Assembly (NCBI GenBank): GCA_011049425.1
Contig: DSBM01000134.1
Span: 1 to 36,068 of the forward strand
DNA from: Candidatus Aminicenantes bacterium
GTDB lineage: Bacteria > Acidobacteriota > Aminicenantia > UBA2199
Direction: 5' to 3'
Length of the DNA stretch: 36,068 nt
Within the stretch, counting starts at the first letter, position 1; each line of letters starts with the position of its first letter. This document shows positions 16,872-36,068 of this stretch, piece after piece. Made by a program: the position numbers and the translations under genes. The notes under the pieces were generated by a model. The model saw only the letters and a program-made list of their open reading frames with translations. It did not search any database and was not told the DNA's origin.

Positions 16872-17810
16872 ATGGAAAAAACGATTTCCTGGGAGAGCCG
16901 GGTCGGGCTTTTAACAAATCCGCTGGTTTTAAAGCAAACGGCCCTGACCGTCATCGGCGCCGGCCTGATCATGGCTTTTCTTCTGAGTTTCATTATGGCC
17001 GTGACCGGTGAATTCTCAAGCATCCTTCCCTTGCTGGGAGCGAGCGTACTCGTTGCCGCGGGGTTGGGGTTATTGGCCGCGTTTATCATGCTGGTGTTTA
17101 TGGGCAACCGGGTGCGAGTCCGCTTCACCGTGAGCAAAGACGGTATACTTTGGCAGACCGTTGACAAGCGGGTCCTGGGGACCAACCGCCTGGCGGTTAT
17201 CGCCGGCGTTCTGGGCGGAAGCATGCAAACCGCCGGAGCCGGCGCCCTAGCCACGTCACGGGAAAAAGAGTTTGTCGCCTGGAACGAAATCGCCACCATG
17301 GAAACCAACCCCAAGCACCTGCAGATTGTGCTGCGGAACAGCTGGCGCCCGGTGATGATGGTGGTCTGTCTCCCGGAAAACTTTCAAATGGTTGTGGATT
17401 ACGCAACCCAGAGGATCCACCCAGCCACGGCGGAGGACGGGGCGCCGCGCAAAGCCGTCGTCAAACCCATTGGCCGGGCCCTCCTGAGGAGCCTGGCGGT
17501 GAGCCTGACTTCCGCTCCGGTTTTTATGTTGAACAGTTCGTGGATCGAACTGGATCCGTTTTTTCCGCTGCTGATGTTTTGCTTCGCCCTGGCAACCGTC
17601 TGGTTGATCCCTTTCTTCGGATGGGTTGTGCTCGGGGCGGGTGCGATCGTCGCGGCTCAGGTGCTGAGCGGAGGGATTTTCTGGTTCAGCGTCCTGGACG
17701 GCGGTGAGCAAGCCGTTTATGTGCTGGCCTGGGCCGGTTTGGTATGGCTGGCCTGGTTCTCCATAGGAGCGCTGCGGGGAAGATTTCCGCCACCCTTACT
17801 GGAGAAATAA
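16872..17810 (+). CDS. Integral membrane protein of unknown function
   Basis: A 312-residue membrane protein. Two helices near the N-terminus (about residues 24-47 and 54-80) are followed by a soluble domain (about 85-190) with VRFTVSKDGILWQTVDKR and EFVAWNEIATMETNPKHLQIVLRN, which reads like a small PH-like beta domain. At least three more helices follow (about 200-300). I recognise no named family. The ATG at 16872 has GGAG eight nt upstream and a near-consensus promoter; an in-frame GTG at 16848 is less likely. It is divergent from the XRE/DUF2178 unit. Confidence 0.7.
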   Translation: MEKTISWESRVGLLTNPLVLKQTALTVIGAGLIMAFLLSFIMAVTGEFSSILPLLGASVLVAAGLGLLAAFIMLVFMGNRVRVRFTVSKDGILWQTVDKRVLGTNRLAVIAGVLGGSMQTAGAGALATSREKEFVAWNEIATMETNPKHLQIVLRNSWRPVMMVVCLPENFQMVVDYATQRIHPATAEDGAPRKAVVKPIGRALLRSLAVSLTSAPVFMLNSSWIELDPFFPLLMFCFALATVWLIPFFGWVVLGAGAIVAAQVLSGGIFWFSVLDGGEQAVYVLAWAGLVWLAWFSIGALRGRFPPPLLEK

Positions 17811-17956
17811 TCATACCGAACCAACTGGACAAAAAGAGATGGTGGCACTGGATTTTCGGTGTGATCCAACGCGCGGCCGCGTGCAATGATGCTCATGTCT
17901 TTGACGTTCCTGCTAAAGACAGGTTGTGTCACGACTGGCATTGGGGGAGGCTTCCC

Positions 17957-20887
17957 ATGTGTTGTAAAAACAGAATAATCCGCGGTGTTTTACCTATTTT
18001 TGCGGTTGGTCTGTGCTTGTTGTTGTTTGGCGTCTCTTGCACCGAGAAATCACCCCGGGAGAAGGCCCAGGCAACCGTTGAATCACGGTTCACTGAGAAG
18101 AGTGAAGCGAAAGCGACCGCTTACCAACTGGCCCCCCTGGTAAGGGAAGTCCTCAAGGCTGTGGACAATGAACAGAAAGTCGCCATTGAGGCGAAAGTTG
18201 CGGTTGTGATTCCGCCAAAAGGACTTCAAAAAGAACAGAAACTGACCATATCGGAAGTTGTCAATCCGCCGCCGGTTTCCGCCAACACCCGCAGAATAGG
18301 CGTTTACAGCATAAAGTTTGATGACCCCCTGGATATTCCCGATGGTTTTGTCCTGGAGTTCAACTGCGATCTCTCAGGGAGGGAAAAAGAGATTTCCGAC
18401 GGCAATTTTTTCGAGGTTGAGTTTTTCGATGAGTCAACCAAAATGTGGTTGCCGGTTCCTGCGGACTACGATGAAGCCGGTAAGGTTCTGAGGGCGGATG
18501 TTACCCGCAACGGCCTCTGGCAAGTGGTTATGGTCCAGAGTTTTTTCGGGAACCACCGGGTTCTTGTGACCGATAACTTTGTTATATTTTTCAATCTAAA
18601 CGAATTTTACCCTGAAGACTTTAATCGGCTGCATCAGTTGAAAGCCAGGCAGAAACGGATTCTGGAGCTTAACCGGCTGAATACTGAGCTGGAAAAAGCC
18701 CGGCGGGATGATCCATCCAGGATTCCTTCCCTGAAGAAGGCTGTTCAGAACTTAAAAGAGGCCATCGCCAAGGAACCTTTCACAGATGGCGATAGAAACG
18801 AAATCACCCAATTGGAAAAAAAGTTGGCGGACATGCCGACTTCATTCCATAATCTTCCCGAAGATATTTACAACAGGTATGACGCTCCCAGGTATATTGT
18901 GGAGTTGGCTTATCACGGAGAAAACGCCTGGGAAAAATACAAAAAAGCGTTTGGTAAAGAGCCTTACCAAAAGAACCTCAATGTAACGACCAAATATCAT
19001 CACAGCAAGGCGCTTGTAAAAACCAGAAAGGACATATCCACGTGGGAGTCTTATTCCGGCGCAACTTATGGTGTCGAGGTGTCGGACAAATTTCCCATCT
19101 ACGTCCAGTCAAAAATTCAAGACCCCAAATACTATGCGCGATCCGGTTCCATTTACATCGGCATCATGCCGGCAATGCACGACTATTATATCAGCCACGA
19201 ACTTTTTCACGCGGTTCAGAACAAGGATTACTGGATGGGTATGAAGCAATCGGGTTTCGGCAAGATCTCAGATTGGGTGAGATTTACCCGCAATAACAAC
19301 TGGTGGCTTGAATCTACCGCGGAGTATGCCGCCAGAAAAACAGTTCTCAACAAACAGTATCCCACGTTATACAAACTCAACGCCGCTTACTTTCCCGAGG
19401 ATTTCTTTTCCAGTTCTATTGACCATTCCTATAAGAATGCCTGGTTCTGGAATTACCTGGTCGAAAACAGAAGAATCTCCTTTGCGGATATGTACAAAAC
19501 AGTTGCTGAAGCTTCCACAACCCAGGGGTTGCAAACCGTTTTGGAAAAAACTTTAAAGTCAAAAAGCGGCAGTACGCTTACTCACCTATACCGTGACTTT
19601 GTCGGTCATGCCCTGTTTGACGGTACGAACCCTTTCCAGGGTAAACTTCCCGTTGAACCATTGCCTTTGGACAGGAAGCAAAGAATCGTGAAGTTTTCCC
19701 TCCCTCAGGGACTGGTTGCCCAGGTTCAGGGACTTCTGCCCGAAGATCCCGGAAGGGGACGGTCTTTCGAAGTAAATTTTCATACCACTTACAACACTTC
19801 TTACCATCAGATGGGCAGGATGAAACCCTGGTGGGTGGATGTTTACCTGCTTAAACAGAACGACCGTAAGAACAAGGTTGAGTATGTGGGAGGATGGAGC
19901 CTGGAATTGTTTCTGAGTAATCCTGCAAACAAGACCTTTGAGAAGACGTATCCGGTCCACATGGGGCCTGGAGATGGCTTGTATGCAGTAGCTACTGGGC
20001 ATTTGGATAGTGGAAGCACCTTTACTGTGCATGTAAAGGAGATAGATGAGGACAAGGCTTCCGGTTATTGGAAATTAGTTAAAGTAGAAAATGCAGGTGT
20101 CAAAGCCACTGACCGGGGGAGAGAAGGTGGAAAATATATAAAAACCGTTACTCGCAGCGGTCACATCGAGGCAAGAGGACGAATAATGAAGGGGAGAGAC
20201 AGGGATCAACTGGAGGCGCTGACCCTCAGCCTGAAATGGGCTCCGCCGCCTGCAGCGGCAACCCCCGGCGATCAATGGGACGGTCGGTACAAGGCCGAAG
20301 TACTCGAAGATATTCATCAGGACACCAGCACCGGTGAAATCAGGGGGAAAAACACGGGTTATTATTCTGTAAAATGTGAATTCGGGGCGGCACGTACCGA
20401 AAAGCCGTTGATCCCCGACAGGCTCCCGATTCTTCATCCCGCGGTTCACATGATAAGAGGCGAGATGGATCCCAGATTGCAGGAGGGTTCTGTTTATACC
20501 TTCTACGACAGGTCATCAGATTATAAATACCTTTGCTTGTATGTCAGGGGGGGGCTGAGTACTCCCATGGGCACTGCCTTTGATGCCTATTTTTACTTTT
20601 ACGAATGGACTCCGGGCAAACCTCCCGCTGGAAATGCCGGCAAAACAACAGACCCAGCGGCAACCCCTGCGGCATCTCCGGCATCCTCGCCGCAAGATCG
20701 CGGGGATGACTACCTGAAGAGGTTGTCTGCGGCTAAAACTCGATATGAAGCGGCTTACTCCCGGTACACGACTTTAACCACCACCGGTGGACCGGGAAAC
20801 GTTCAGGAAGCATTGGACGAATACCGGGAGGCTCACAGGGCCTTGAAAGAACTGGAGGCGGAAAGAGGCGGCGCGGGAAAAAAATGA
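17957..20887 (+). CDS. Large lipoprotein with gluzincin-type HExxH metallopeptidase motif
   Basis: A 976-residue exported protein. A signal peptide (about 26 residues, VLPIFAVGLCLLLFGVSC) ends in a lipobox-like GVSC. The next 200 residues look like beta-sandwich repeats. A Lys/Glu-rich coiled segment follows (about 220-295). The motif SHELFHAVQ (His414, Glu415, His418) with WWLESTAEYAA 34 residues later (Glu452) is the gluzincin zinc site. The C-terminal third is beta-rich, then a Pro/Ala/Ser linker and a short helical tail. GGAGG lies seven nt before the ATG at 17957. AT-rich codons (AAA, AAT, TTT) are more frequent than in neighbours, suggesting transfer. Specificity unknown. Confidence 0.72.
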   Translation: MCCKNRIIRGVLPIFAVGLCLLLFGVSCTEKSPREKAQATVESRFTEKSEAKATAYQLAPLVREVLKAVDNEQKVAIEAKVAVVIPPKGLQKEQKLTISEVVNPPPVSANTRRIGVYSIKFDDPLDIPDGFVLEFNCDLSGREKEISDGNFFEVEFFDESTKMWLPVPADYDEAGKVLRADVTRNGLWQVVMVQSFFGNHRVLVTDNFVIFFNLNEFYPEDFNRLHQLKARQKRILELNRLNTELEKARRDDPSRIPSLKKAVQNLKEAIAKEPFTDGDRNEITQLEKKLADMPTSFHNLPEDIYNRYDAPRYIVELAYHGENAWEKYKKAFGKEPYQKNLNVTTKYHHSKALVKTRKDISTWESYSGATYGVEVSDKFPIYVQSKIQDPKYYARSGSIYIGIMPAMHDYYISHELFHAVQNKDYWMGMKQSGFGKISDWVRFTRNNNWWLESTAEYAARKTVLNKQYPTLYKLNAAYFPEDFFSSSIDHSYKNAWFWNYLVENRRISFADMYKTVAEASTTQGLQTVLEKTLKSKSGSTLTHLYRDFVGHALFDGTNPFQGKLPVEPLPLDRKQRIVKFSLPQGLVAQVQGLLPEDPGRGRSFEVNFHTTYNTSYHQMGRMKPWWVDVYLLKQNDRKNKVEYVGGWSLELFLSNPANKTFEKTYPVHMGPGDGLYAVATGHLDSGSTFTVHVKEIDEDKASGYWKLVKVENAGVKATDRGREGGKYIKTVTRSGHIEARGRIMKGRDRDQLEALTLSLKWAPPPAAATPGDQWDGRYKAEVLEDIHQDTSTGEIRGKNTGYYSVKCEFGAARTEKPLIPDRLPILHPAVHMIRGEMDPRLQEGSVYTFYDRSSDYKYLCLYVRGGLSTPMGTAFDAYFYFYEWTPGKPPAGNAGKTTDPAATPAASPASSPQDRGDDYLKRLSAAKTRYEAAYSRYTTLTTTGGPGNVQEALDEYREAHRALKELEAERGGAGKK

Positions 20888-22729: not shown

Positions 22730-25582
22730 ATGGCTGGAAACGACAGTAGACCCACCCACCTGGGCGGAAAGAAGTTTGATCGGGTCGAGATGGGCCCGCT
22801 GGAACTTGTCTACTTCAACCTGGTCAAGTTAAAGCCGGGCACAATCATCAACGGCCGCTACCGCATAAAAAGGCTGATCGGCAAAGGCGGGTTCGGCATC
22901 ATTTTCGAGGCACTTGACATCACCCTGGGCACAAGTATGGCGGTTAAGTTCCTCAATCCCGAGTTGACGAAGGAAGACAGGAAATTTCTGCGCGTCACGC
23001 GCGAGATCAATATCGCGCGCAAGATCAGCGACGAACGCATTATCAAGGTGTTTTCACTGGAAAGTTGGCGCGGAATCCATTTCCTGGTCATGGAACTCGC
23101 CTCCGGACGCAGCCTGAAGTCGCTCCTGGAAGATAAATGTCCCTTGACCTGGGCGGAATTCAAGGACATATTTATCAACATCCTGGAAGCGGTGGCCGTG
23201 TTGCACTGCAACGGTATCGTTCATAGGGACCTGAAGCCGGCCAATATCCTGATCGATGAAAACAAGCGCATCAAGATCCTCGATTTTGGTTTGGCCAAAG
23301 AGGTCATGGACATGGAAAAGACCTCAACTGTCGGCGAAATCGTAGGATCGCCCTATTACATGTCACCTGAACAAATCCGCGGGAACGCCATCGGGTACGC
23401 CTCGGATGTGTACCAGCTGGGATTGATCCTCTGCCGCGTACTGACAAACCGTCATCCCTTCGAAAGCTCAAGCACCATGGAAATGATTTCCAAGCAACTC
23501 GCCAAAAAGCCGGATCCGCCGCAAGTGGATAAGGGCAGCTTGCCGCCTTTCCTCTATATCGGGATTGAGAAAGCCCTGGAAAAGGCCCCGGAGCGACGCT
23601 TCCGTGACGCCGGCACCATGGCCGATTTCTTTCGCAAGCAAAAGGTCTCCCGGTTACGCCGCGGGCTGCTGACCCTGAACCGCAGGCCGCTGAAAGCGGG
23701 CCTGATCGGCATGATTCTAAGCGCTACTATTTTTTTTGGTTTTCAGGCAACTTTCGGCTCCCAAAAGATCCACAGGTTCATTTCCCGGGAAGGTGTTCTT
23801 CAGGCCCGCAACCGCCTGGGCATCCAACTATGGAAAAAAGATTTTTCCCCGTTCCACGTCTTTGCCGCTTATTCCACCAAGCTCTCGGCGCCCCTACTAC
23901 TGGGAACGGGCAGTTCCCCCGAAATTCCCTTCCTTGACCTGGGAGATGATCCGGTTACGATTGCCCTCCTGGCTCCACCCCTGGAAAAGCCTTTTCCGGT
24001 TGAGATGTCCATTGCGGATGACACCCTCATGTGCCGACTGGCCATCGTGTCATCCACCGGCAAACTGTTAAAAAAGGAACCCCTGTCCGGCCACTATGAC
24101 GCATACGATTACGTTCAGATCACCAGGCCCCATGCTTTCCAAAATCACGGCTTGAACGCCAGCGGGGAAACCTGCGTTTCTTTCACCCTGCAGCAGTATC
24201 AGGGCATGCATCCTTCTGCCCTGATATACATGGAGGGCCTCGAAAAATACGTGTACACCCATCCGGGGAGATTCACAGCCGCCCTGCTGGAACGAAACGA
24301 TGAAAAAGTGTCTTTTATGTTGGTCGGAATCAACAACCTGATCGCCCACAGTCAATTTATATCTGAATTTGTGTTTGACAAATCCACAACCAGCACACGT
24401 CTGCTCAAGGGCATTCCCAGCATGGCTTCTGGTCAACGTAACAATGTCCCTGATGAAGACCGGCTCTTTTTCCTGCCATTTCGGGCACGAATACTGAAAA
24501 ACCGCTGGCGTGAAGAGGGGCGCGCCCGCTTTACCGAACAAGCCAACGGAGATTTACTCGATTTCGACCGCGACGGGCGCCTGACCATGCAGTCCACAAG
24601 GGGGAGCACGGTTTATTCCGATCGGCTTGATACGCTGCGCCGGCTCTATACGCTTGTGAATATGAGCTTTCAGGAAAAGCTAGTAAAACACAATCCACGG
24701 AATGCGCTGGCCTTGATCAATCAAGCCGGCTCTTTCTCTATCGAAAACCCCTTCCTGCGCTCAATTGTCCTCTACTTGAAAGGCGACCTGGAGATCGCAC
24801 TCGGGCGCTATGGGGATGGAGAAAAGACCCTGCAGCAAGCGTTGTCGATTTATCCCGGTAACAAGGATGCCTGTGAGAGGCTCTGTGAAATGGAAATGCT
24901 CCGGGGTGACACGCCGGCCGCCCTCACCCGCCTGACCGACAGCCGCTCAGACAGCACACAGTTCTGGGGTTTTGCCGTTTTTGGTGTGAACTTGTTTAAA
25001 GGCTATCTGTTTCTGCACACAGGCCTGTTCAACCAAGCCGAAGCCGAGTTTAACCGTATCGGGAATAGAGTAGAGGACATTGCTCAATTCTGCCTGGCAA
25101 CCAAAGCCTTTTTCGGAGGTGATTACGAAATAGCACAAACCCGCCTGCTTGAGTTGGAGCAAATGGCCCTTGACGCTGTTGACGTGCGCGAGCTGCGATT
25201 GCTATTGGGCCGCACCTTGTTGCTGAACTCCGGAAACAGGGAAAAAGCGCGATTTTTATTTAATGACATCTCTTACAACTCGCTGGATTTCGGTCACTTG
25301 GCTGAAGTTTCATCCTGCTATCTCCTGGCACGTGCCGGCCGGACAGCCGAAGCGGCGCAATCCGCCCAAACGGCTTTTGAACGTCTGAGAGAGAAGGCAC
25401 GCGGTGATTTCATAACCCGGCTGTGGTTATTCTACGATGCATACGTGTACGGCCTTGTCATGGAGATGGCCGGAGACAGCGAACAGGCGGAACGCGGTTT
25501 CAGGGAATGCATCGCGGCCAATCCGCACACGGAATTGGCCGCGAAGGCAAGGAAATGGTTGAGCAAAAAGCAAAGATCATAA
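22730..25582 (+). CDS. Hanks-type Ser/Thr protein kinase with transmembrane helix and TPR-like C-terminus
   Basis: A 950-residue receptor-like kinase. The kinase domain (about 44-310) has the glycine loop IGKGGFGIIF, Lys73 in AVKF, catalytic HRDLKPAN (Asp167), metal-binding DFG (Asp185) and YMSPEQ, so it should be active. A single membrane helix (about 323-341, LIGMILSATIFFGF) leads to an extracytoplasmic half. That half has a beta-rich region (about 350-630) and a helical repeat region (about 640-945) with TPR-like pieces such as GDLEIALGRYGDGEKTLQQALSIYPGN and AERGFRECIAANPHTELA. The start could also be ATG 22790. It ends 41 nt before convergent radC. Confidence 0.9.
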   Translation: MAGNDSRPTHLGGKKFDRVEMGPLELVYFNLVKLKPGTIINGRYRIKRLIGKGGFGIIFEALDITLGTSMAVKFLNPELTKEDRKFLRVTREINIARKISDERIIKVFSLESWRGIHFLVMELASGRSLKSLLEDKCPLTWAEFKDIFINILEAVAVLHCNGIVHRDLKPANILIDENKRIKILDFGLAKEVMDMEKTSTVGEIVGSPYYMSPEQIRGNAIGYASDVYQLGLILCRVLTNRHPFESSSTMEMISKQLAKKPDPPQVDKGSLPPFLYIGIEKALEKAPERRFRDAGTMADFFRKQKVSRLRRGLLTLNRRPLKAGLIGMILSATIFFGFQATFGSQKIHRFISREGVLQARNRLGIQLWKKDFSPFHVFAAYSTKLSAPLLLGTGSSPEIPFLDLGDDPVTIALLAPPLEKPFPVEMSIADDTLMCRLAIVSSTGKLLKKEPLSGHYDAYDYVQITRPHAFQNHGLNASGETCVSFTLQQYQGMHPSALIYMEGLEKYVYTHPGRFTAALLERNDEKVSFMLVGINNLIAHSQFISEFVFDKSTTSTRLLKGIPSMASGQRNNVPDEDRLFFLPFRARILKNRWREEGRARFTEQANGDLLDFDRDGRLTMQSTRGSTVYSDRLDTLRRLYTLVNMSFQEKLVKHNPRNALALINQAGSFSIENPFLRSIVLYLKGDLEIALGRYGDGEKTLQQALSIYPGNKDACERLCEMEMLRGDTPAALTRLTDSRSDSTQFWGFAVFGVNLFKGYLFLHTGLFNQAEAEFNRIGNRVEDIAQFCLATKAFFGGDYEIAQTRLLELEQMALDAVDVRELRLLLGRTLLLNSGNREKARFLFNDISYNSLDFGHLAEVSSCYLLARAGRTAEAAQSAQTAFERLREKARGDFITRLWLFYDAYVYGLVMEMAGDSEQAERGFRECIAANPHTELAAKARKWLSKKQRS

Positions 25583-26283: not shown

Positions 26284-26595
26284 GCAAACAAACCAGCAAA
26301 ACCGATGCCATTAACCTTATCAGTATTTGTAGAAGGTAGAACGTAGAAGACCTCGGGAGTATTTGCAGGAAGATTCCGGAAGTATCTGTAGGCTTTTTTG
26401 GAGTGCCTCCCTCACACCTCGTTTTCCTTCACCCGTGGTACGGGCGGTTCACGAACCGCCCCGTTCTGACCTCTTTCCCGCCTCTGGCCCCTAGCCACTG
26501 GCCACTCGCCTTCCCCCGGTTGACTCTCCTCTCCCCCTGGCATACAATTATTTATGCCGGGGTAACGCGAAAACCGCCCCCCCTTGGAGCCCGAC
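26284..26595. repeat. Intergenic repeat island 4 (312 nt, no gene)
   Basis: The divergent gap between radC and gdhA holds GTAGAAGGTAGAACGTAGAAG (about 26329), then CTCGGGAGTATTTGCAGGAAG at about 26352-26372 (like 540-563). A hairpin follows at 26442-26461 (GGGCGGTTC and its complement, 2-nt loop, preceded by GTAC), and then a GCC-rich pyrimidine run at 26470-26512. The gdhA promoter at 26520-26548 directly follows the last repeat. No coding sequence is seen. Confidence 0.7.
26520..26548 (+). promoter_or_regulatory. Promoter of gdhA and probably the PEP-synthase-like genes
   Basis: TTGACT (26520-26525), a 17-nt spacer and TACAAT (26543-26548), each 5 of 6 to consensus, about 48 nt upstream of the gdhA ATG. 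Confidence 0.7.
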
Positions 26596-27876
<1,281 letters not shown>

Positions 27877-27946: not shown

Positions 27947-29680
27947 ATGACGGATCGAATAACCACGGTGTCGCCCTTCCGCCGCCAGGATGACCCACGC
28001 CCGCCAATCACACGTATAGGGACGGGGAGTCTTGGCGGCAAGGCATCCGGCCTGACGGCACTCCGGCAGGATCTGGAGCAGCGCTTCGGCAATGCCGATT
28101 ACCGGGGTTTCCTGGTGGACATTCCCCCCTTTACCGTCATTGCCACGGATTTCTTTGACCGTTTCATGAAACAGAACGACCTGGCCACTGTGGTGGAAAC
28201 GGAGCCGCCCGACGACCGCATCGCCCACCACTTCATGCGTGGTGAACTTCCGGTTGACCTTACCGGTGATTTGCACCATTTAATCGCACGTACGCGTCAT
28301 CCCCTGGCGGTGCGTTCTTCAGGTATGTTGGAAGATGCCGCCGATTCACCTTTTGCCGGGATCTACGCCACCAAGATGATTCCCAACAACCAGCCGGACA
28401 CGGACGCCCGCTTCCGCAGCCTGGTGGAAGCCATCAAGTTCGTTTACGCCTCTACGTTCTTTTCCGCGGCCCGCGCTTACCGCGAAGCGGTGGGTTTCAG
28501 CCCCTGGGACGAAAAAATGGCCGTCATGATCCAGGACGTGGCCGGCCGGGAGCGCAACAAGCGCCACTACCCGATTATTTCCGGAGTGGCCCGATCCTTC
28601 AACTTCTATCCCCAGGGAGCGGCCAAACCCGAAGAAGGGGTAGTAGACCTGGCCCTGGGGTTAGGCAAAAGCATTGTGGATGGCGGACAAACCTGGAGCT
28701 ACTCCCCCGCCCACCCACGCGCCGTTCCGCCTTTCGGATCCACATCAGACTGGCTCAAGCAGACCCAGCGCAAATTCTGGGCCGTCAACATGGTCCGGCC
28801 CAAAAAAGTCAACCCCCTGGAAGAAACGGAATTCCTCATCCACCTGGAACTTGAAGAAGCCGATTACGACAACACCCTGAAAAGGGTGGCTTCCACCTAC
28901 GACGCCGCATCGGACCGCATCCAACCCGGCGTGGCCGTACAGGGCCCACGCATCATCTCCTTCGCGCCCATACTCCAGGTGGGGCTGATGCCCCTGAACG
29001 ACCTGTTGCGGGAACTGCTCAAATTGGGCGAGGAAGCCGCCGGATCTCCCGTTGAAATGGAGTTCGCCCTGGACTGGAAAAACAACAGCAAAGATCCCGC
29101 GGTTTTTTCGGTGTTGCAGATCCGCCCCCTTGCCTTGTCAGCCGAAGAGGTCGAAATCACCCGGGCGGAGTTCAACGCCCCCAATCGCTTGCTGGCCACA
29201 GCCGGCGCTCTCGGCAACGGGGTGATAAAGGGCATTCGCGACATCGTCTATTTACCGCGTGAAAGTTTCGATTTCAAATATTCCCAAAAGATCGCCCGGG
29301 AGTTGGCGGACCTCAACCGCGTCCTGTTGCAACAGCAACGCCCCTTTCTGCTTATGGGTTTCGGCCGTTGGGGATCATCGGACCCCTGGTTGGGGGTTCC
29401 GGTCAACTGGGGCCGGATTTCCGGAGCCCGCGCCATGGTTGAATCCACCCCGGCGGGAGGGCATGTTGATTTGAGTCAGGGATCTCACTTTTTTCACAAC
29501 CTAACCAACCTCAAGATTCCGTTTTTCTCAATCCGCTACGGTCGTGACTTCCTCGACTGGGAATGGTTGGACAAACAGGAAGCGGAAACAGAAACGCGGC
29601 ATATCCGCCACCTTCACCTGGATAGCCCTTTAACAATCAAGGTGGACGGGCGGTCTCGCCAAGGAGTCATACTGCGATGA
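27947..29680 (+). CDS. PEP synthase/pyruvate phosphate dikinase N-terminal (ATP-binding) domain protein
   Basis: A 577-residue protein whose core is the PEP/pyruvate-binding ATP-grasp domain: SLGGKASGLTAL (about residue 28) and PLAVRSSGMLEDAADSPFAGIYATK (about 119) match the PpsA/PPDK N-terminus. No swivelling phosphohistidine domain and no PEP-binding TIM barrel follow. Instead, the last 110 residues hold LLMGFGRWGSSDPWLGVPVNWG and DLSQGSHFFHNLTNL, a module shared with the next gene. So it cannot be a complete PEP synthase. It overlaps the next gene by 4 nt (ATGA). A role as a regulatory phosphotransferase or sensor is inference; this family is seen in other phyla but is uncharacterised. Confidence 0.78.
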   Translation: MTDRITTVSPFRRQDDPRPPITRIGTGSLGGKASGLTALRQDLEQRFGNADYRGFLVDIPPFTVIATDFFDRFMKQNDLATVVETEPPDDRIAHHFMRGELPVDLTGDLHHLIARTRHPLAVRSSGMLEDAADSPFAGIYATKMIPNNQPDTDARFRSLVEAIKFVYASTFFSAARAYREAVGFSPWDEKMAVMIQDVAGRERNKRHYPIISGVARSFNFYPQGAAKPEEGVVDLALGLGKSIVDGGQTWSYSPAHPRAVPPFGSTSDWLKQTQRKFWAVNMVRPKKVNPLEETEFLIHLELEEADYDNTLKRVASTYDAASDRIQPGVAVQGPRIISFAPILQVGLMPLNDLLRELLKLGEEAAGSPVEMEFALDWKNNSKDPAVFSVLQIRPLALSAEEVEITRAEFNAPNRLLATAGALGNGVIKGIRDIVYLPRESFDFKYSQKIARELADLNRVLLQQQRPFLLMGFGRWGSSDPWLGVPVNWGRISGARAMVESTPAGGHVDLSQGSHFFHNLTNLKIPFFSIRYGRDFLDWEWLDKQEAETETRHIRHLHLDSPLTIKVDGRSRQGVILR

Positions 29681-32600
29681 ATGACGGCAAACCCATGGAC
29701 GGCCTGATGCGGGACCTGCAGGAACGCGCCAAGGAACTCAATTGCCTGTACATGGTTGAAGAGGTTCTCAGCGAAACCCGGGATGACCTGGACGCCATGT
29801 TCCGCGGCCTGTTGCACGTCATCCCCGACGGCTGGCAATTCCCCGAACTCTGCCAGGTCAAACTGGAATACCAGGAGCAATCCTGGTTTACCCGGGACTA
29901 CGAAGATACGCCGTGGCAACAGACCGTCGACATCGTGGTTCAGGAAAAGCCCGTCGGCCGCATCACCGTGTCTTACCGAGAAGAGGTTCCGGCTTCCAAA
30001 GACGGGATATTCCTCAAAGAAGAGACCCGCTTGATCAACTCCATAGCCGAACGCATCGGCCACACGGTGCTGCACCGGGAGCTCAAAGAGGTTTACCAGG
30101 AATGGCGACAGGCCGGCAACATGATCAACCACCGCCAGGACCAGTGGGAAGTCATCGTGGACCTGCTGCAGAAAACCGACAAAAAGCTTTTTATCTACCT
30201 CTCCCACAAGATGCTCCACTACCTGTGCTGGAACGGGGTGGAAAGCGCGAAAACCCTGTTGCAGAGTTTCAGCGGACGCGGGCAACTCAACGAGAAAGAG
30301 TTGCTGGAAGACGACAACCGTCCCCAGGCCAAGCAGACTATGGACAACCTCTACCTGATCGGGCGCCAGGTCTTTCACATCGCCGCGCGCAACCTCAAGT
30401 CAGACGTCATCCTCTCTCATGTGCAGAAATGGATCCAGGAAGACAAATCCCGGTTCCTGGTACGGGCTATCGACGACCCCAGCTCGTCACTGCCCGAAAT
30501 CATCGACTCCATCACCCGCTACCGTTTCATGCACGCCGAGGGCATCACGCTGTCGCCCTCGATTGAGAAAGGCCTGAAGGTCTCGCTGGTTCGACGCTTC
30601 TTTTCCGACCAGTTGGAGTTCATCAACGTGGCCAAGGAACACATCGATGTGGAGGACTACTACGACCTGATCCCCCACGTCATCTTCCCCCAGGGCAGCC
30701 ACGGCAAACTGGGGGGGAAAAGCGCCGGCCTCTTCCTGGCGGACCGTATCCTGTGCAAAAGCCCGGAATTCGAGACCCTCTTCCCCAACCTGAAAGTACC
30801 CAAGACCTGGTATATCTCCTCAGACGGATTGATCACCTTCCTGTATTACAACAATCTGGAAGAGGTAATCGAACAGAAATACAAGAACGTGGATGAAATC
30901 ACCCTGGAATACCCCAACATTATCCAGATATTCAAGAATTCCCATTTTCCGCCGGAGATCATCCGCGGACTCTCGATGGCCCTGGATGACCTGGGAGAAA
31001 CCCCCATCATCGTACGCAGTTCGAGCCTGCTGGAAGACCGTTTGGGTGCCGCGTTTTCCGGTAAGTACAAGAGCCTGTTCCTGGCCAACCGCGGTTCCAA
31101 GACGGAACGCCTGGACGCCCTGAAAGACGCCATCGCGGAGATCTACGCCTCGACATTCTCCCCCGATCCCATTGAATATCGCACCGAGCGGGGCCTGCTG
31201 GATTTCTTTGAAGAAATGGGCATCATGATCCAGGAAGTGGTTGGGCACAAAGTCGGTGACTTCTTTTTGCCCACTTTCGCCGGCGTGGCTTTCAGTCACA
31301 ACGAGTTCCGCTGGTCGGCACGCATTGAACGCGAAGACGGATTGATCCGCATGGTACCCGGACTTGGCACTCGCGCGGTGGACCGGGTGGCTGATGATTA
31401 TCCCTGCCTGATCGCCCCGGGGAAACCCGACCTGCGGGTGAATGTAACACCGGAAGAGGTCCAGCGCTACTCCCCACGATACGTGGACTTGATCAACCTG
31501 AAAACCAACTCTTTCCAAACCATGGAGATCCGGGAACTGTTGCGGCTTCACGGAGATGACATCAACGGCATCCACCGCGTGGTATCCATCAAGGATGGAG
31601 ATATGATTACTCCCCCCACATCGATAATGAACATCGATTTCGAAAACCACGAACTGGTGGCCAACTTTGAGGGTTTGATTCAGCGTACGCCGTTTATCAG
31701 CCGCATGCGCAACCTGCTGAACCTGTTAAAGCAAAAAATCGGCTGCCCGGTGGATGTGGAATTCGCCCATGACGGCACCCACCTCTACTTGCTGCAGTGC
31801 CGGCCGCAGAGCTATTCCCGCGATATTCAGCCCAGCCCCATTCCCAAGGACATCCCCATCCAGGACACGGTGTTTACGGCCAACCGCTATATCTCCAACG
31901 GCAGTATTCCGGATATCACCCACGTTGTGTACGTGGACCCGGACGGGTACAACAACCTTTCTTCGCACCAGGAGTTGAAACGGGTCGGAACCGTTGTCGG
32001 CCGCCTGAATAAACTTCTTCCCAAACGCCAGTTCATTTTGATGGGACCGGGGCGTTGGGGCAGCCGCGGTGACATCAAGCTGGGTGTCAGCGTCACCTAT
32101 TCAGAAATCAACAACACCGCGGCCCTGGTGGAAGTGGCCAAGAAAAAAGGCAATTACACCCCGGACCTGTCATTCGGCACCCACTTTTTCCAGGACTTGG
32201 TCGAGGCGTCCATCCGTTACCTGCCCCTTTATCCCGACGACCCCGACGCGGTGTTCAACGAACGCTTCTTTACATCTCAACCCAATATCCTCAAAGAAAT
32301 GCTGCCGGAATTCGCTCCCCTGGAAAACGCGGTCCGGGTTATCGACATCCCCTCCGGCAACCGCGGCCGCATTCTGAAGATACTCATGAACGCGGATTTG
32401 AACCGTTGCGTGGCCATGCTGGCAGACCCCGGAGTCATGGTCTCCGAGGTTCAGCAACAGGAACCGGCAACCACGACAGGGGGCCGCCATGAAGAGTACT
32501 GGCGCTGGCGCTTGCACATGGCCGAACAAATCGCAGGCAAACTGGACGGGAAGCGCTTCGGGGTGCGTAACATCTACCTGTTCGGCAGTACCAAGAACGG

Positions 32601-32901
32601 CACCGCCGGACCGGGCAGCGACATCGATCTGCTTGTTCATTTTAGCGGCACAAAGAAACAGCGCGAGGAACTTGTGCTCTGGCTGGACGGCTGGAGCCGC
32701 GCCTTGGGCGAGATCAACCACCTGCGCACCGGCTACCCGGCAGAAGGCCTGCTGGACATCCACTTTGTGACCGACAAGGACATCGAAAACCGCACCAGTT
32801 ATGCGGTCAAGATCGGCGCGGTCACCGATGCCGCCCGGCCGCTGGAAATGAAAACAAAAAAAGTTGAAGAGTTGAAAAGGGAAGAAGTTGAAAAAAGGTG
32901 A
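29677..32901 (+). CDS. Fusion: sensory GAF-like domain, PEP-synthase ATP-binding domain and nucleotidyltransferase
   Basis: A 1074-residue protein. Residues 1-135 (LQERAKELNCLYMVEEVL, LLHVIPDGWQFPELCQVKLEY, FLKEETRLINSIAERIG) look like the GAF-like sensor found before many histidine kinases. After a helical region, LGGKSAGL (about 343) and IIVRSSSLLEDRLGAAFSGKY (about 446) mark the PpsA-like ATP-grasp. LMGPGRWGSRGDIKLGVSV (about 788) and FGTHFFQDL match the shared C-terminal module. Residues 965-1050 are a pol-beta-type nucleotidyltransferase, LFGSTKNGTAGPGSDIDLLVHF. No phosphohistidine domain is seen. The final 14 codons (KKVEELKREEVEKR) are repeat-derived. Function unproven. Confidence 0.75.
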   Translation: MNDGKPMDGLMRDLQERAKELNCLYMVEEVLSETRDDLDAMFRGLLHVIPDGWQFPELCQVKLEYQEQSWFTRDYEDTPWQQTVDIVVQEKPVGRITVSYREEVPASKDGIFLKEETRLINSIAERIGHTVLHRELKEVYQEWRQAGNMINHRQDQWEVIVDLLQKTDKKLFIYLSHKMLHYLCWNGVESAKTLLQSFSGRGQLNEKELLEDDNRPQAKQTMDNLYLIGRQVFHIAARNLKSDVILSHVQKWIQEDKSRFLVRAIDDPSSSLPEIIDSITRYRFMHAEGITLSPSIEKGLKVSLVRRFFSDQLEFINVAKEHIDVEDYYDLIPHVIFPQGSHGKLGGKSAGLFLADRILCKSPEFETLFPNLKVPKTWYISSDGLITFLYYNNLEEVIEQKYKNVDEITLEYPNIIQIFKNSHFPPEIIRGLSMALDDLGETPIIVRSSSLLEDRLGAAFSGKYKSLFLANRGSKTERLDALKDAIAEIYASTFSPDPIEYRTERGLLDFFEEMGIMIQEVVGHKVGDFFLPTFAGVAFSHNEFRWSARIEREDGLIRMVPGLGTRAVDRVADDYPCLIAPGKPDLRVNVTPEEVQRYSPRYVDLINLKTNSFQTMEIRELLRLHGDDINGIHRVVSIKDGDMITPPTSIMNIDFENHELVANFEGLIQRTPFISRMRNLLNLLKQKIGCPVDVEFAHDGTHLYLLQCRPQSYSRDIQPSPIPKDIPIQDTVFTANRYISNGSIPDITHVVYVDPDGYNNLSSHQELKRVGTVVGRLNKLLPKRQFILMGPGRWGSRGDIKLGVSVTYSEINNTAALVEVAKKKGNYTPDLSFGTHFFQDLVEASIRYLPLYPDDPDAVFNERFFTSQPNILKEMLPEFAPLENAVRVIDIPSGNRGRILKILMNADLNRCVAMLADPGVMVSEVQQQEPATTTGGRHEEYWRWRLHMAEQIAGKLDGKRFGVRNIYLFGSTKNGTAGPGSDIDLLVHFSGTKKQREELVLWLDGWSRALGEINHLRTGYPAEGLLDIHFVTDKDIENRTSYAVKIGAVTDAARPLEMKTKKVEELKREEVEKR

Positions 32902-33062: not shown

Positions 33063-36000
33063 CTATTTCGTCCGTATCTTTTCTGTAAAGTACCGTTCGG
33101 CGGCGATGGCTTCGGGAGCCTCTGCAACCGTGGTTTCTTTCGGCTCCACGCAGGCGAAGCGGAAGGTTTTGCCGTTCAGGGGGCCCTGTTCCAGCAATAA
33201 GGCCCCGCGAAAGTCGCTGTTTCGCTCAGCAGCCAGCAGGGGATGCTCACCGCGCATTTCCGCCGCCAAATCTTCCACACCGGTAAATTCAAAACCTTTG
33301 CCCATGCGCGCTCCCAGGCGGGCGATGATATGCCAATTCTGCTGTTTTGCATCAATGGGGACAATGGGCGCAAGGTTCAGGCTCACCCCGTCACAGCGGG
33401 TCATGGTGCCCTCTGTTTCGGCGAAGGAAACCGCGGGCAGCACCACGTCGGCACGCTCCATGGTTTTGGTCCAGCTTCGATCCATGGCAACCACAAACTC
33501 CGGTTGATCACCGCCCTCTTTGAGGATTCCGGCTCCCACCGGGTCTTCACCCAGCACAATCAAGGCCTTGATGACGCCGTTCTCCAGGTCGGTTTTCAGA
33601 TCAACATCTGATTTCGTGTTTTTGAATCCGGGCAGATGATCCGGGGTGATACCCAGTTCGCGGACGCCGGCGGCGTTGGCATGGTGATCCAACAGGATCC
33701 AGCCATTGCCGTCGAGACTGCTCCCGACAAGAAGGGTGTCCACCATGGCCGGCAGGGCGGCGTCATGGCCGCCGTCAGCCAGTGGAGGAACGATCCAAGT
33801 GGTTTCTATATCGGGATCAGCGAAAGTGTCTAGCCATTTCTCCAGGGTTTCGGCCGCAATGCCCGTCTCTTTGATTACCCTCTCTTCTGAAAATCCAGTG
33901 GCATGGGAACGCAAATCCTGTCCGTTTTTTACCCGGATCTCCACTTTGTCTGGATCGATTTTGCCGGCTTTAATCCACTGGTGCACCAGGACATAGAACA
34001 GGGAAGAAGCGGTTCCCGGCCGGGGGGTCAGCCAAAGGTCGGATAGGGCGGCCATGCGCTCATTGGTTTCACCCAAGACCACCACCCGGGCACCGCGTTT
34101 GCGGGCGCGGCGGATCAGGTATTCCACCACCAGGCTTTCCTCACCCATGGCACCGGGGAGCACACCGATAACTTTGGCCGTTTCCAGGTCGTTCAGGTTG
34201 GCCGTGGACAGGGTGGCCCCCAACTGCGAATTCAATCCGGACACGGCCCGGCCTGAATTCAGGTAAGAGAAGCTGCCCAAACGAGAAGTGCCGATGGCCT
34301 GGCGGGCCATTTTCTGGGCCAGGTACAGGGCCTCGTTGCTCCAGCGCGGCGAAACGAACACACCCACAGCTTCCGGTCCGTGTTTTTCAACCACTTTGGA
34401 AAGGCCGGTCTGGACCTTTTCCAGGACCACGTCCCAATCCGCCGCTTCGTGTCCATCTGCGTTGCGCAGATGAGGCCGCGAAACGGGCTTATTGTCCACC
34501 AGGTAGCGATGACCGAAACGGCCCCTGGCGCAGAGAATGCCGTGGTTGGGCCCCTGTTGCACATCTTCGGTGGTATTGGCCACGTGGAAATGGTCTGAAG
34601 CCAGGATTTTGAAATTTACCGCGCATCCCAGGGAACAGAATTGACACACCGAAGGCATGTTTTCTTTGGCCAGGGTACCCAGTATTTTGTGGGGGAAGTG
34701 TTCGGAAAGGGCGCCGGTGGGACAGGTGTCCACACAGTTGCCACAGGCCACGCAAGGCGTTTCGACCAGCGGTTTCTCAAGCGCCGGCCGCACCACGGAT
34801 CGAAAGCCGCGGTGGACGAATCCCAGGGCCGCCACACCCAATTCATCGGTGCACATGCGTACGCAACGCCCGCAACTGATGCACTTGTTGGGGTCATTGA
34901 TCACCAAGGGGTGGCTGCAATCCACGTGGTACTCTTGCGTTTCCCCGCGGAAAGGCGTGAGATCCACCTCGAATTCATCGGCATAATGCCGCAATTGACA
35001 ATCAAAGTACTCAACACAGCCGCATTCAAGGCAACGCTTTGTTTCAGTCTGCACCTGTTCGCTGACGTAGCCGCCTTCCACTTCGCAAAAATTTTTGATG
35101 CGTTCTTTGGCCGGCAGTTCCGGCAGGTGCTGCCTGGGTAGATCAACAGCCACGTCCTCCAGTTCCGCCCGCGCGACATCGTGAAAAACGTGTTTGAAAC
35201 TGTTAAAGTGGAAATCGGCCCCTTCCGCGCTGCCGGTACGCAATTTGCTGTCAATGGCCAGGGCGGCGCGTTTACCCTGGGCAATGGCACCGATGGCGGT
35301 CCAGGCACCTGTTACCACGTCGCCTCCGGCGAATACGCCCGGGATCGATGTCTCCAGGGTTTTTTCATCTGCGCGGACAGTGCCCCACTTTTCCAGTTCG
35401 CAGCCGTTTTCGCCCTGGTTGAATGCGGTGTCCACCTGCTGTCCAATGGCGCCGATCAGGGTGCCGCATTCCAAGACAAACTCGGAACCAGGGATGGGCA
35501 CAGGCCGGGGACGACCGCCGCCCCCCACTTCCTGGAGCGACATCTTTAAGCATTCCACGCCCTTGAGGCGACCGTTTTCGCGCACAATGGATTTGGGGTT
35601 GGTCAGAAAATGAAACTCCACTCCCTCACTGCGGGCGGCTTCGACTTCTTCTTCGTGCGCCGGCATTTCGCGGATGCTGCGGCGGTAAACAATGACCACT
35701 TTTTCAGCGCCGCAACGCAATGCCGTGCGTGCGGCATCGATGGCGGTATTGCCACCGCCCACCACGGCCACGGTGCCGTTAAATTCCGGTGGCCCTTCAA
35801 TTTGAACCTTCCTTAAAAATTCGATCCCTTTCAATACGCCTTCGGTGTCATCTTCGTGTTCCAGGCGCATGGTCGAGGCGCGGTGGGCGCCCACACCCAA
35901 AAAGACCGCGTCATATTTGCCTTTCAAACCGGCAATGGTGATGTCGCGGCCCAGTTCTATTCCCAGCTTCACCTCAACACCCAGACCGGTGATCCAGGCG

Positions 36001-36068
36001 ATCTCCTCGTCCATAATCGCCTTGGGCAGGCGGTACTCCGGGATACCGTAGCGCATCATGCCGCCCAG
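33063..36068 (-). CDS. GltD-like flavin/ferredoxin/NuoG-FdhA-like fusion oxidoreductase (5' end outside window)
   Basis: At least 1001 residues; the start lies beyond the right edge. Order: FAD/NAD(P)H domain of GltD type (VAVVGGGNTAIDAARTAL, VIVYRRSIREMPAHEEEV, IPGVFAGGDVVTGAWTAIGAI); a RCLECGCVEYFDCQLR motif; two ferredoxin clusters (CISCGRCVRMC and CVACGNCVDTCP); then a molybdopterin-oxidoreductase domain with a CxxCxxxC...C cluster (CQFCSLGC, ILCARGRFG). Where formate dehydrogenase has Cys or Sec (before xxPSVAGL), this protein reads YLNSGRAVSGL, with Asn. The C-terminal dinucleotide-binding domain is also missing. It is therefore closer to a NuoG-like electron-transfer protein than to an active formate dehydrogenase. 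Confidence 0.83.
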   Translation of the reverse strand: MGGMMRYGIPEYRLPKAIMDEEIAWITGLGVEVKLGIELGRDITIAGLKGKYDAVFLGVGAHRASTMRLEHEDDTEGVLKGIEFLRKVQIEGPPEFNGTVAVVGGGNTAIDAARTALRCGAEKVVIVYRRSIREMPAHEEEVEAARSEGVEFHFLTNPKSIVRENGRLKGVECLKMSLQEVGGGGRPRPVPIPGSEFVLECGTLIGAIGQQVDTAFNQGENGCELEKWGTVRADEKTLETSIPGVFAGGDVVTGAWTAIGAIAQGKRAALAIDSKLRTGSAEGADFHFNSFKHVFHDVARAELEDVAVDLPRQHLPELPAKERIKNFCEVEGGYVSEQVQTETKRCLECGCVEYFDCQLRHYADEFEVDLTPFRGETQEYHVDCSHPLVINDPNKCISCGRCVRMCTDELGVAALGFVHRGFRSVVRPALEKPLVETPCVACGNCVDTCPTGALSEHFPHKILGTLAKENMPSVCQFCSLGCAVNFKILASDHFHVANTTEDVQQGPNHGILCARGRFGHRYLVDNKPVSRPHLRNADGHEAADWDVVLEKVQTGLSKVVEKHGPEAVGVFVSPRWSNEALYLAQKMARQAIGTSRLGSFSYLNSGRAVSGLNSQLGATLSTANLNDLETAKVIGVLPGAMGEESLVVEYLIRRARKRGARVVVLGETNERMAALSDLWLTPRPGTASSLFYVLVHQWIKAGKIDPDKVEIRVKNGQDLRSHATGFSEERVIKETGIAAETLEKWLDTFADPDIETTWIVPPLADGGHDAALPAMVDTLLVGSSLDGNGWILLDHHANAAGVRELGITPDHLPGFKNTKSDVDLKTDLENGVIKALIVLGEDPVGAGILKEGGDQPEFVVAMDRSWTKTMERADVVLPAVSFAETEGTMTRCDGVSLNLAPIVPIDAKQQNWHIIARLGARMGKGFEFTGVEDLAAEMRGEHPLLAAERNSDFRGALLLEQGPLNGKTFRFACVEPKETTVAEAPEAIAAERYFTEKIRTK

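Follow-up and report, generated by a model that had tools for sequence, protein, structure and literature searches.

VadK (Rv1127c) of M. tuberculosis is a truncated PPDK histidine kinase, made of an ATP-grasp and a His domain, which phosphorylates itself and binds to enzymes in the pathway that it tunes (PMC13400623). Rifampin phosphotransferase (RPH), in which K22 is essential (PMC4844700), and the two-component dikinase HpeHI combine such an ATP-grasp with a canonical swivel domain and an acceptor domain for a small molecule (PMC4844700, PMC12167813). EI-Ntr (PtsP), a phosphotransfer enzyme linked to nitrogen status, has a GAF domain at its front end, and this domain binds glutamine (PMC4848567); transfer of nucleotides to proteins by a nucleotidyltransferase (NTase) fold is known from GlnE/GlnD and from MntA of the HEPN/MNT system, in which a GSX10DXD motif does the AMPylation (PMC7641770). 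Mammalian glutamate dehydrogenase (GDH) is AMPylated by SelO and is then less active (PMC12375108). Little is known of how most bacterial phyla regulate GDH, a meeting point of carbon and nitrogen metabolism.

Here we analysed a stretch of 36,068 nucleotides from Candidatus Aminicenantes bacterium (assembly GCA_011049425.1, contig DSBM01000134.1; hereafter the window) in which a GDH gene is followed, after a gap of 70 bp, by two genes, G1 and G2 (Table 1). VadK is the closest concept to this pair, HpeHI and RPH have the closest ATP-grasp structures, EI-Ntr has the closest logic and MntA the closest NTase; none of the five has the architecture of G1/G2. Like VadK, G1 and G2 have a PPDK-type ATP-grasp followed by a small C-terminal domain, with no PEP barrel, and VadK acts as a regulator linked to a metabolic pathway, a role proposed below for the present genes as well. 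Unlike in G1/G2, the His domain of VadK is recognisable by comparison with PPDK, and no GRWGS module, GAF, NTase, metallophosphoesterase or GDH link is described for it (PMC13400623). HpeHI also divides its work over two genes, but the swivel and acceptor domains that it shares with RPH were not recognised by sequence in G1/G2. EI-Ntr, in contrast to G2, uses PEP, has no NTase and carries canonical PF00391 and PEP barrel domains, neither of which Pfam detects in G1/G2. The NTase at the end of G2 has the GSX10DXD motif of MntA but, unlike MntA and GlnE/GlnD, is joined to a GAF-like/ATP-grasp protein encoded in a GDH operon, and no HEPN partner was seen. A search of the literature, subscription papers aside, found no description of this architecture or gene set, nor a known family with the three-part make-up that a sequence-only reading of this DNA had pointed out.

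Table 1. Features of the GDH-G1-G2 locus, in window coordinates.
Feature	Position	Strand	Length	Basis or remark
GDH, ELFV family	26584..27876	+	430 aa	PF00208/PF02812
G1: ATP-grasp + GRWGS/SHFF module	27947..29680	+	577 aa	
G1 PPDK_N ATP-grasp, aa 28-401	28028..29149	+		PF01326, residue conservation
G1 C-terminal module, aa 410-577, candidate diverged phosphohistidine swivel domain	29174..29677	+		AF2 secondary structure; hhalign negative
Codon of invariant H514, candidate phosphorylation site, helix N-terminus	29486..29488	+		helix 514-521
G1 stop/G2 start overlap, ATGA	29677..29680	+	4 nt	
G2: GAF-like + helical + ATP-grasp + module + nucleotidyltransferase	29677..32901	+	1074 aa	
G2 GAF-like sensor, aa 6-148	29692..30120	+		Foldseek to GAF structures
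G2 all-helical region, aa 149-335	30121..30681	+		AF2 secondary structure
G2 PPDK_N ATP-grasp, aa 344-723	30706..31845	+		PF01326, residue conservation
G2 copy of GRWGS/THFF module, aa 728-920	31858..32436	+		hhalign to G1 module
Codon of invariant H836	32182..32184	+		helix 836-843
G2 nucleotidyltransferase domain, aa 941-1058, GSX10DXD + D1027	32497..32850	+		PF01909, Foldseek, motif

The overlap of the two reading frames was as first read, and an overlap of -4 or -8 recurs in many relatives. Both proteins contain the ATP-grasp motifs previously noted (SLGGKASGL and VRSSGMLED in G1; KLGGKSAGL and VRSSSLLED in G2), and Pfam detected PF01326 in G1 (7e-39) and G2 (2e-56) and, beyond this, only NTase families in the G2 tail (PF01909, 3e-10, above cut-off, and PF18765). 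Residues K32, R123, E370, E372, Q391 and R393 of G1 and K348, R447, D693, E695, Q707 and R709 of G2 align on the known ATP-site residues of PPS/PPDK; all six are invariant, in 49/49 G1 and in 76/76 G2 sequences. A PPDK_N ATP-grasp with the catalytic K, R, D/E-x-E and Q-x-R is thus present in each protein. AF2 models had a pLDDT of 87.4 and a pTM of 0.88 for G1, and 83.5 and 0.67 for G2. In Foldseek, G1 and G2 were closest to RPH, PPS and PPDK, the best structural matches of the ATP-grasp being RPH and HpeHI, and a sequence search of the PDB gave no match with G1 and PEP-synthase-type entries only with G2. As the ATP site is invariant, a wholly catalytic-dead scaffold is unlikely. PEP synthase and PPDK share PF01326 and all six catalytic residues with G1/G2 (with one conservative D-to-E change in G1), but the identity in Foldseek alignments is only ~10-17%. 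Moreover, at a limit of E=10, PF00391 was found neither in any of the 49 G1 proteins nor in the window's G2, and the PEP/pyruvate barrel PF02896 was absent from G1/G2, so the pair, judged by its domain content, is not a PEP synthase. In the rest of the window's genome PF00391 is confined to two proteins, one PPDK-like (C89) and one of ~597 aa that is PTS enzyme I-like (C63).

The sequence-only reading had assigned to both proteins a common C-terminal module that replaces the phosphohistidine domain. That the module is common was borne out (GFGRWGSSDPWLGV...GSHFF in G1, GPGRWGSRGDIKLGV...GTHFF in G2; the two profiles match each other in hhalign with an E of 8e-22), and H514 is kept in 49/49 G1 and H836 in 76/76 G2 proteins. 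The stated lack of a phosphohistidine domain and a PEP barrel also agrees with the profile searches above. Its standing as a replacement is doubtful, as the module, with its invariant [ST]H at the start of a helix, may be a strongly diverged swivel domain. In the AF2 model of G1, the ATP-grasp is followed by two long strands, a long helix, the strand LLMGF and then GRWGS, the strand ARAMVE, the loop SQGSH, a helix from H514, a strand and a final VDGR hairpin. The order in swivel domains is an SPGxaxG pair, an ILV strand, an IVT strand, GGxTSH, a helix, a strand and a DGxxG hairpin. The predicted helix/strand order and the position of the module agree with this, with the invariant His at the helix start. 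In PPDK and PPS the His domain directly follows the ATP-grasp, and in RPH it lies at the far end. Foldseek alignments extended over ~550-750 columns to most PPDK entries and over 586 columns for G1 to PPS, versus only ~400-470 to RPH; the exceptions were G2 against PPS, which ends at 399, and one PPDK mutant entry with 466 columns. These figures, being alignment lengths and not residue ranges, support the swivel identity indirectly.

Homology to phosphohistidine domains was not obtained by hhalign. Module profiles of 38-105 sequences, compared with phosphohistidine profiles from PPDK, PPS, EI and other loci, gave P=0.077 for the full family, no better than unrelated segments (0.016-0.018), and P 0.006 with the G1-type-only set; neither value was taken to support homology. 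In full-length hhalign, 'GALGNGVIKGIRDIV' aligned with the beginning of the PPS swivel domain, after which the register was lost, and the GRWGS signature was not seen in the aligned His domains. Taking the predicted structure together with these comparisons, we lean towards the module being a swivel domain.

The GAF-like sensor proposed for the front of G2 found agreement in structure, with Foldseek matches to the GAF structures 4g3k and 8jrc (NifA), and also to 3p01, at a probability of 1.00 and an E of ~0.03-0.1, but not in Pfam, where no GAF profile matched G2. At the other end, the pol-beta NTase with an intact motif was confirmed by its Pfam families and by GS-X10-D-I-D, which is intact in ~72/76 G2 relatives, the third Asp, D1027, being kept in all 76. 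The best Foldseek matches of this domain were MntA/MNT antitoxin structures (~18% identity), and it is very likely active.

A scan of genome contigs yielded at least 580 confirmed relatives, the best 80 loci of which were analysed. These 80 are 52-62% identical, apart from one at 95%, and as labelled they come from Aminicenantes, Acidobacteria, Zixibacteria, Spirochaetes, Bacteroidetes, Melioribacter/Ignavibacteria, Calditrichota, Planctomycetes, Verrucomicrobia/Lentisphaerae/Kiritimatiellae, Gemmatimonadetes, Eisenbacteria, Krumholzibacteria, Cloacimonadota, Fermentibacteria, Myxococcales and others. Such full-length identity across many phyla, together with invariant catalytic residues, argues that the architecture is not a chance assembly. 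Of the same best 80 of at least 580, 65 loci have at least 1.5 kb of upstream sequence, and in 61 of these it contains GDH on the same strand; these GDHs are mostly 64-76% identical to that of the window. Full-length G1 was called in 50 of the best 80 loci, and is fused, broken or cut in four more (L027, L042, L065 and L085), one of which, L027, is a natural in-frame G1-G2 fusion in a single reading frame of 1627 aa; in many other loci G2 comes straight after GDH. G1, the NTase or the GAF is absent from some relatives, in which the pair of ATP-grasp and module persists, so not every step of the mechanism proposed below would be needed everywhere.

A second sample consisted of 198 evenly drawn Acidobacteriota genomes, and the co-occurrence statistics refer to Acidobacteriota only. 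G2-like proteins were present in 45 of them, and in 30 fetched G2 loci GDH or G1 was just upstream in nearly all where the sequence reaches. The GDH clade, with membership set at E<=1e-130, occurred in 37 genomes, 36 of which had G2 (Fisher 7e-30), and 35 of 42 GDH copies were within 6 kb of G2. The P values of co-occurrence ignore phylogeny. The sequence-only reading, which had called for a neighbourhood survey, interpreted the pair, next to GDH, as serving signalling or regulation. This is strongly supported by gene order, by co-occurrence and by the shuffling of sensor domains (GAF-like in G2, receiver in the paralogue G3 described below), and we consider a functional link of G1/G2 to GDH highly probable. 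Among Acidobacteriota loci, L143-L153 contain G2 variants beside GDH in which no NTase was detected, L149 also being without the GAF region, and L146/L147 have a second GDH, 31% identical, on the other side of G2. The window's genome has a second GDH of the same clade (G000:C70:269-1540, 65% identity), not seen beside G2 and with a contig end nearby. Y287 and Y413 of GDH were considered as acceptor tyrosines and set aside; they are kept in the linked GDHs but also in an unlinked copy of the same clade.

Clustering the neighbours of G2 revealed a calcineurin-like metallophosphoesterase (MPE) of ~287 aa (PF00149; for example L054:7513-8376), which adjoins G2, usually convergently, in 32 of 57 loci with room for it among the best 80 of at least 580 relatives. 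It was found in 17 of the 198 Acidobacteriota genomes, all 17 carrying G2, and in 0/153 genomes without G2 (Fisher 7e-13; 1e-7 at genus level), and in five genomes it is directly downstream of G2 on the same strand. These P values take each genome as independent, and those at genus level are still below 1e-6. It was present in 14 of 19 genomes with an NTase-bearing G2 versus 3 of 26 without a detected NTase; the remaining 5 of the 19 lacked it. No MPE is near the window's G1/G2, the copy in that genome being on another contig (G000:C116:27886-28722), and a sequence search gave no solved structure for it. G3 (L007:7215-10205, 996 aa), a paralogue of G1 that opens with response-regulator receiver sequence, likewise has PF01326 and the shared module; in 7 of the 17 MPE genomes it stands in tandem with MPE. 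In L007 it sits between lexA/dinB-like genes and an EF-P-like gene, named by reading their translations. The MPE, the G3 paralogue and the frequent absence of G1 are all new with respect to the sequence-only reading.

From these data we tentatively propose, at somewhat short of even chances, that GDH, G1 and G2, with MPE and G3 nearby or elsewhere, form a GDH-dedicated signal-transduction module that works as a relay. G2, through its GAF-like domain, and G3, through its receiver domain, would read a metabolic cue and thereby gate the PPDK-type ATP-grasp domains. These would spend ATP on phosphorylating H514 of G1 and H836 of G2, the invariant His residues in the neighbouring swivel-like modules, and the state of the relay would in turn control the MntA-type NTase at the end of G2, which would attach a nucleotide to GDH or to a partner within the module and so change GDH activity, and MPE might remove the modification. 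AMPylation or phosphorylation of a partner, as suggested earlier, is plausible, as nearly all relatives keep their NTase and ATP-grasp sites intact. GDH itself may well be the modified protein, although we would put this slightly below an even bet, and the genes could also be neighbours because they are co-regulated, with something other than GDH as the target. That the set amounts to a widespread counterpart of GlnE/GlnD/PII controlling GDH instead of glutamine synthetase, with a phosphohistidine relay, a new swivel lineage, nucleotidylation and an MPE eraser, is rather doubtful. If the proposal is true, this four- to five-gene set would be a common GDH control device across Aminicenantes, Acidobacteriota, Bacteroidota, Spirochaetes, Zixibacteria, Planctomycetes and others, it would add to the few cases of a PPDK-type enzyme turned regulator, and it would make reversible modification of GDH directly testable.

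The main rival to the relay, in our view unlikely, is that G1/G2 are a small-molecule set, in which a metabolite linked to glutamate or 2-oxoglutarate receives a phosphate from the dikinase and a nucleotide from the NTase, yielding a messenger or cofactor that MPE processes or degrades. In its favour, MPE tracks the NTase, and metallophosphoesterases are known to cleave small phosphodiesters. Small molecules are also the substrates of the majority of the characterised PPDK_N enzymes that have an acceptor domain, such as PEP synthase, rifampin phosphotransferase and HpeHI (PMC4844700, PMC12167813). However, no acceptor-binding domain, be it a PEP barrel or a RIF-binding domain, is recognisable in G1/G2, the receiver and GAF-like domains on the paralogues point to signalling, and, G1/G2/G3, GDH and MPE aside, each neighbour family turns up in at most 8 of the best 80 of at least 580 loci. 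A different reading would have the module not be a swivel domain and its His not be phosphorylated. G1/G2 would then bind GDH, either as allosteric scaffolds that bind ATP or as direct protein kinases, and the NTase would be the only catalytic part. The lack of sequence support for a His domain in the module, its GRWGS signature and the persistence of the ATP-grasp and module pair where the NTase, GAF or G1 is missing all speak for this reading; against these stand the PPDK/PPS-type ATP-site residues, invariant in both proteins, which is unusual for pseudoenzymes, the [ST]H at the helix start within a swivel-like helix/strand order, and the longer Foldseek alignments to PPDK and PPS than to RPH. 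We regard this reading as improbable.

Two further explanations were considered. High identity across phyla makes horizontal spread possible and operons can travel together, so GDH and G1/G2 could form a frozen operon with no functional tie, but they also co-occur on different contigs (G066, G175 and G163, some of which contig breaks could explain), and in L037 GDH lies beside G2 on the opposite strand, which leaves the frozen operon very unlikely. The resemblance of the G2 tail to MntA/MNT antitoxins and weak PADLOC matches to the candidates PDC-S09 and PDC-S10 would suit an MNT-type toxin-antitoxin or defence element that joined the GDH operon; we find this extremely improbable, as no small HEPN-toxin-like partner recurs beside G2 (neighbours of at least 100 aa, best 80 of at least 580 loci), a scan of viral contigs found no relatives, and toxin-antitoxin modules do not typically stay linked to a housekeeping enzyme from phylum to phylum. 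A viral origin was likewise rejected. The two records labelled bacteriophage, L174 and L175 (MT835811, MT835667), with 27-28% matches, encode complete or near-complete G3-like bacterial proteins with a receiver-type front and are probably gut bacterial contigs.

Other genes of the window include a Ser/Thr protein kinase with TPR repeats (22730-25582) upstream of the cluster, with an upstream counterpart in the close relative L015 (76% identity), and a protein of 1047 aa with no significant Pfam match (17744-20887). Downstream, a fusion of pyridine-nucleotide-disulphide oxidoreductase, ferredoxin and molybdopterin oxidoreductase domains (33063-36068) runs off the window end.
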